Assembly: GCA_025210175.1 (NCBI GenBank) | Contig: JAOASF010000104.1 | Coordinates: forward strand, 1-64,000 | Source of the DNA: Crocinitomicaceae bacterium | GTDB lineage: Bacteria > Bacteroidota > Bacteroidia > Flavobacteriales_D > Crocinitomicaceae | DNA length: 64,000 nucleotides | Direction: 5' to 3' | Shown here: one piece after another, positions 477 to 550 of the stretch | Position numbering within the stretch: the first letter of the stretch is position 1 | Layout of the letters: every line of letters begins with the position of its first letter | Notes under the pieces: generated by a model | What the model saw: only the letters and a program-made list of their open reading frames with translations | Database searches by the model: none | What the model was told of the DNA's origin: nothing | Position numbers and translations under genes: made by a program

Positions 477-550
477 TGACCCTGGAGGGATTCTAACCCC
501 CAACCGCTGGAGCCGAAATCCAGTGCTCTATACAGTTAAGCTACAGGGCC
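477..550 (-). tRNA. tRNA-Arg (anticodon UCG) with U19-A56 instead of G19-C56
   Basis: The reverse complement folds into a complete 74-nt cloverleaf. It has a 7-bp acceptor stem (one G-U) and discriminator A73. The D stem is 10-13/22-25. The anticodon stem is CTGGA/TCCAG around loop TTTCGGC, which places UCG at 34-36. The variable loop has five bases and the T stem five pairs. The arginine identity bases A20 and C35 are present. No CCA end is encoded, as is usual in this phylum. Two positions are odd. The D loop reads GT where GG (18-19) is almost universal, and the T loop reads TTAGAAT instead of TTCGAAT. Together they replace the G19-C56 tertiary pair by U19-A56, a matched change that suggests a working molecule rather than a decaying one. 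It would read CGN arginine codons. Confidence 0.88.

Follow-up and report, generated by a model that had tools for sequence, protein, structure and literature searches.

The G19-C56 tertiary pair of tRNA is regarded as near-universal, and the face it offers is where RNase P, the L1 stalk, ribosomal protein L5, and T-box RNAs dock. A tRNA-Arg(UCG) gene of a Crocinitomicaceae bacterium (order Flavobacteriales) carries U19-A56 instead, and the locus raises the question of whether this is a private accident, the mark of an unusual molecule, or part of a wider pattern in which the pair matters more than its letters. The window analysed here is a 64,000-nucleotide stretch of a 64.8-kb contig, from an assembly of 3.25 Mb in 217 contigs, and this gene is its sole tRNA gene. 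A first-pass annotation made from the letters alone had described a matched double change in an otherwise perfect cloverleaf, kept by selection for a working molecule.

The gene is what that annotation said it was. ARAGORN reports a tRNA-Arg(tcg) at 476-550 on the minus strand, and the covariance-model search that had been suggested as a check returned a full-length match to Rfam family RF00005 at 477-550 minus (62.5 bits, cut-off 29; E = 3.5e-11), which covers positions 1-73, without an encoded CCA. On the minus strand its segments read GGCCCTG TA GCTT AACTGTATA GAGC A CTGGA TTTCGGC TCCAG CGGTT GGGGG TTAGAAT CCCTC CAGGGTC A. A check of the numbering places G18 at 533 and U19 at 532, within the D loop AACTGTATA, and U55 at 495 and A56 at 494, within the T loop TTAGAAT. 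The usual G19 and C56 are thus absent, a departure from a trait of the tRNA consensus rather than from a strict requirement, and the two positions form a Watson-Crick U-A pair. The remaining core is normal (U8, A14, A15-U48, G18-U55, U54-A58, A20, C35, G36), and the D stem includes a U13-G22 wobble that the earlier description lacked. The elements of bacterial arginine identity, A20, C35, G36, and a purine at 73 (PMC9976931), are all present, with A73 as the purine.

Directly 3′ of the tRNA, at 436-463 on the minus strand, lies an intrinsic terminator with a 12-pair stem, a 4-nt loop, and a T run; the region 430-476 folds at -15.1 kcal/mol (z = -4.2). Upstream by 34 nt, at 585-592 minus, TACATTTG is a possible -7 box of the Bacteroidota type (TAnnTTTG), preceded at a distance of about 20 nt by a TTG, a tentative assignment given that motifs of this type number 67 in the window against 62 expected by chance. 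A generic sigma-70 promoter scan gave nothing useful. The strong terminator, the candidate promoter box, and the retention of the pair in relatives agree with the earlier view of a matched change kept by selection in a working molecule, and by all indirect signs the window tRNA-Arg(UCG) appears functional.

The neighbouring intergenic sequence, at 7-412, is repetitive: 7-92 and 322-407 are 93% alike, and 76-179 and 189-292 are 88% alike. These repeats hold fragments of the 3′ half of the tRNA, among them TTAGAATCC; the 398-412 segment GTTAGAATCCCTCCA repeats 483-497 in inverted orientation, and GTGACCCTGGAG at 298-309 repeats 476-487 directly. Repeats of this kind were not found in the other fetched loci. 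At one of these loci (L041), a partial tRNA-like stretch (GGCTCCGTGGCGCA...) stands immediately upstream of an intact U19-A56 Arg(UCG) gene at 1501.

Within the same genome, Arg(ACG) has A19-U56, Arg(UCU) has G19-C56, and the Pro, Ala, and Gly tRNAs retain G-C. The window gene is the only UCG or CCG gene found in this assembly, which is 93% complete and whose set of 23 tRNAs rests on one family search; the proposed search for a further UCG or ACG gene found no second UCG, and the Arg(ACG) just described. C56 was also present in all 38 readable T loops of the remaining tRNAs at the fetched loci. Four family genomes are complete in a single contig (G008, G082, G092, and G118), and in these the pattern searches found one UCG gene, one ACG gene, and no CCG gene, so Arg(UCG) is probably the only CGG reader in these genomes. 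The demand placed on it can be gauged from the 744 arginine codons of the window, which include 163 CGA and 16 CGG: because I34 of Arg(ACG) can read CGA too, the UCG tRNA would have a real job though not a heavy one.

The first-pass annotation had treated the exchange as a peculiarity of this locus, and here the relatives tell a different story. U19...A56 recurs in two genomes of the same genus (L033 and L034) and in a further genome from another genus (L024, whose tRNA is 97% identical), making a sequencing error at either position, which had been raised as a possibility, very unlikely. The recommended alignment with relatives gave U19-A56 or A19-U56 in the closest Arg(UCG) genes and G19-C56 in several order-level outgroups. 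A generic Arg(NCG) pattern matched in 193 of 200 family genomes; such patterns fix other positions (e.g., G18, A20, A21, G22), and odd variants escape them. A search of the same 200 genomes for G or C at 19 returned three genes, namely two Arg(CCG) genes and an extra UCG copy (in G204), all with G-C at 19-56. A or U at 19 combined with G or C at 56 turned up once, as an A19-C56 Arg(ACG) of genome G015, and A-A and U-U were not found in the pattern searches of these genomes. All other matched Arg(ACG) and Arg(UCG) genes are A-U or U-A. The G015 gene (L086, region 1501-1574) is a possible evolutionary intermediate. It had also been considered that relatives might have an ordinary G19-C56 while this locus was silent; in the 200 genomes, the sole ACG or UCG gene with G19-C56 is the extra copy in G204, whose body is unlike the family's. 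Arg(UCU), by comparison, has G19-C56 in 78 of 78 matches listed from 100 family genomes, and the change is thus limited in this family to the CGN readers ACG and UCG. The elbow exchange is family-wide and no private mutation of the window locus.

The two positions change together. Among 59 distinct ACG and UCG tRNAs, 29 have U-A, 24 A-U, 5 G-C, and one A-C, so that 58 are paired at 19-56, whereas 10,000 shuffles averaged 27 and never exceeded 41. Mutual information between the two columns (1.26 bits) ranks third among all column pairs, amid the true stem pairs. An alternative D-loop register with U18-G19 was ruled out, as the base after G18 is the one that covaries with 56, and G18 and U55 are invariant. 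In addition, six pairs of full-length natural tRNAs differ at 19 and 56 and nowhere else (L024/L061, L031/L056, L035/L038, L041/L051, L045/L097, and L062/L122), and they span six backgrounds of the D, anticodon, and T stems.

A tree of 79 Crocinitomicaceae was built on 2,049 columns from 15 ribosomal proteins encoded in the S10-spc cluster. Parsimony requires A-U and U-A to have interchanged seven times in the UCG gene and nine times in the ACG gene; with nodes below 0.9 collapsed, at least six and seven remain, respectively. The ACG count is close to that for shuffled labels (mean 12, minimum 9), so the elbow state of this gene has little phylogenetic inertia, and gene transfer between lineages, rather than new mutation, may lie behind some switches of both genes. 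Given the many exchanges between A-U and U-A and the near absence of mispaired genes, what selection preserves at 19-56 is the pairing and not which bases form it; gene comparison thus shows pairing to be under selection in this lineage, with base identity free within A-U and U-A. No switch to G-C was seen in the family's own genes on the 79-genome tree. If the other three Watson-Crick pairs were equally likely, the chance of 13 switches all falling within A-U and U-A would be about 6e-7, a figure that serves as an illustration and involves no mutation model. That this route was not taken, though a path through the G-U wobble should be easier, is the main hint of a bias against G-C; G19-C56 may be selected against in these CGN-reading Arg tRNAs, a suggestion based on its absence after many switches.

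Beyond the family, the change is wider for Arg(ACG), where it extends across several families of the class, than for Arg(UCG). Among the matches listed from a phylum sample, Arg(ACG) is usually A19-U56 in families f15, f16, f17, f19, and f22, and G-C prevails in f14, f18, f21, f28, f27, and f45; Arg(UCG) outside the order is mostly G-C, and U19-A56 occurs only in Crocinitomicaceae. Within the order, A-U was seen in families f3, f5, f8, and f13. Named examples of A19-U56 Arg(ACG) include Prevotella sp. oral taxon 299, Parabacteroides distasonis, Bacteroides finegoldii, and Phocaeicola massiliensis, each of the latter three species carrying three copies in a row, in records that are labelled plasmids though some are probably pieces of chromosome.

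Phage tRNA arrays, including that of Ochrobactrum phage vB_OspM_OC, also contain A19-U56 Arg(ACG), and no U19-A56 Arg tRNA was found in the viral contigs searched. Several viral loci (L222, L226, L246, and similar) have an Arg(CCG) with A19-U56, and the change therefore exceeds ACG and UCG outside Crocinitomicaceae. Phage arrays (L207-L263) show U56 in Phe, Ile, Thr, Ala, Gly, and Glu isoacceptors too, and one Gly(GCC) has C19 and G56. Exchange of the elbow pair thus seems more frequent among phage tRNAs, though a misplaced T loop may underlie some of these non-C56 calls.

How, then, should the window tRNA be understood? It would be an ordinary elongator tRNA-Arg reading CGA and CGG, in which G19-C56 was replaced by the near-isosteric U19-A56, most likely via the A19-U56 state common in relatives. 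We consider it highly probable that these are ordinary tRNAs in which selection maintains a Watson-Crick platform at 19-56 and the letters G and C are not needed. The flat face of any Watson-Crick pair would serve the contacts with RNase P, the ribosome, and the synthetase, and charging would use A20, C35, and G36 as usual. The earlier suggestion of altered use by RNase P, EF-Tu, or TruB found no sign in its favour, and the pattern suggests that the partners need the pair and not its letters. A decaying copy, or a tRNA withdrawn from translation in the manner of the staphylococcal cell-wall tRNA-Gly, seems to us scarcely credible. The adjoining repeats at 7-412, with their pieces of the tRNA 3′ half such as TTAGAATCC, might point to alteration by recombination, yet exchange at the 3′ end cannot change position 19 as well. 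Moreover, the cloverleaf and terminator are intact, the stems are unbroken and their constraint is visible as strong covariation in relatives that share the same state, and the gene is no spare copy beside a normal isoacceptor, since the assembly yielded no other UCG or CCG gene and complete relatives showed a single UCG gene each.

It is over what drove the exchange that the readings sharing this functional core part ways. On the one hand, the history may have been one of neutral, compensated drift, with an ancestral Arg(ACG) moving from G-C to A-U by way of G-U, the UCG gene acquiring its state by duplication and anticodon change, all Watson-Crick pairs equally fit, and G-C nowhere disfavoured. 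This differs from our preferred explanation in cause alone, and we take it as a serious contender without quite leaning towards it: A-U in Arg(ACG) is an old, inherited state, A-U UCG genes resemble ACG genes in body, and engineered pair swaps work, but switches between A-U and U-A require mispaired intermediates and yet none led to G-C, which a G-U wobble could reach, and G-C has been kept by every other tRNA examined in these genomes. On the other hand, G19-C56 may be disfavoured in the clade's CGN-reading Arg tRNAs, leaving the pair to alternate between two weak states; a looser elbow might favour decoding with their G+C-rich anticodons, or there might be a factor that recognises G19-C56 and has to be evaded. 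Simple tuning of G+C-rich codons was rejected, since it would predict a like change in the Pro, Ala, and Gly tRNAs of this genome, whose codons are just as strong and whose G-C is retained. A maintained elbow of weak pairs only (A-U or U-A) in the CGN-reading Arg tRNAs of much of Bacteroidia, acting as an antideterminant or tuning element, is a conjecture that we offer tentatively and would lean against; if true, it would separate these tRNAs from others towards a factor reading G19-C56, such as the ribosome, an enzyme of tRNA modification, or a defence system or toxin that cleaves tRNA. Far less likely is an arginyl-tRNA synthetase (ArgRS) that has co-evolved with the elbow and demands a weak 19-56 pair through a lineage-specific insertion or D-loop-binding domain. 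Arginine identity does depend on A20, which adjoins position 19 (PMC9976931), and Crocinitomicaceae ArgRS has an insertion of about 42 residues in its catalytic region. However, that insertion is missing from f3, f5, f8, and f13, whose tRNAs are A19-U56, but occurs in f7, where Arg(ACG) has G-C, and the same enzyme has to charge a G19-C56 Arg(UCU); as its distribution does not track the elbow, we rejected it as the cause. The insertion itself follows KGDKLVGKYYV in Crocinitomicaceae and in order families f6, f7, and f10 (L296-L311, L315), where this stretch is 33-103 residues longer than the 111 of other families.

Although the window molecule is no new kind of molecule, the elbow-pair exchange is a large pattern that is unreported as far as the literature searched shows; we found there no report of a natural bacterial A19-U56 or U19-A56. 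The clade offers a ready natural experiment on whether the elbow needs to present a flat pair or specific bases, and its strength is that two tRNAs on which cells depend have exchanged the pair repeatedly, so that both states occur in molecules that are otherwise the same. As A19-U56 is also found in Arg(ACG) of gut Bacteroides, Parabacteroides, Phocaeicola, and Prevotella, the question can be addressed in genetically tractable relatives.

Among known systems, the variant stands close to the canonical bacterial elbow, in which partners such as the ribosome and RNase P meet the outer face of the 19-56 pair (PMC4810234). The position, the expected Watson-Crick geometry, G18-U55, and U54-A58 are all as in that elbow (PMC4810234, PMC7912444), whereas the pair here is U-A or A-U and is confined, in the family, to Arg(ACG) and Arg(UCG). 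Engineered swaps have produced similar molecules: A19:U56 or C19:G56 restores charging of a mitochondrial tRNA-Ser (PMC10412605), tRNA-Leu with G19C/C56G is charged normally, as cited in PMC3602588, and G19A/C56U in a pre-tRNA hardly affects processing by PRORP3 (PMC5039416). These results, the tRNA-Leu one as relayed by its citing paper, likewise indicate that synthetases and an RNase P tolerate Watson-Crick exchange, but they concern laboratory constructs, while the exchange described here is natural, fixed, and repeated in tRNAs on which cells depend. Eukaryotic tRNA-Ala(IGC), with its unusual 15-48 and 54-58 pairs, is likewise a case of an isoacceptor-specific tertiary-pair change that involves A34/I34 and a G+C-rich anticodon; it differs in that other pairs are affected, these are purine-purine and not Watson-Crick, and the feature is stated to be absent from bacteria (PMC7566577). 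Finally, the staphylococcal non-proteinogenic tRNA-Gly species, as mentioned in PMC9976931, are also bacterial isoacceptors with altered T-arm features, but by that mention they are dedicated to cell-wall synthesis and escape EF-Tu, whereas the variant described here is apparently the cell's only reader of CGG.
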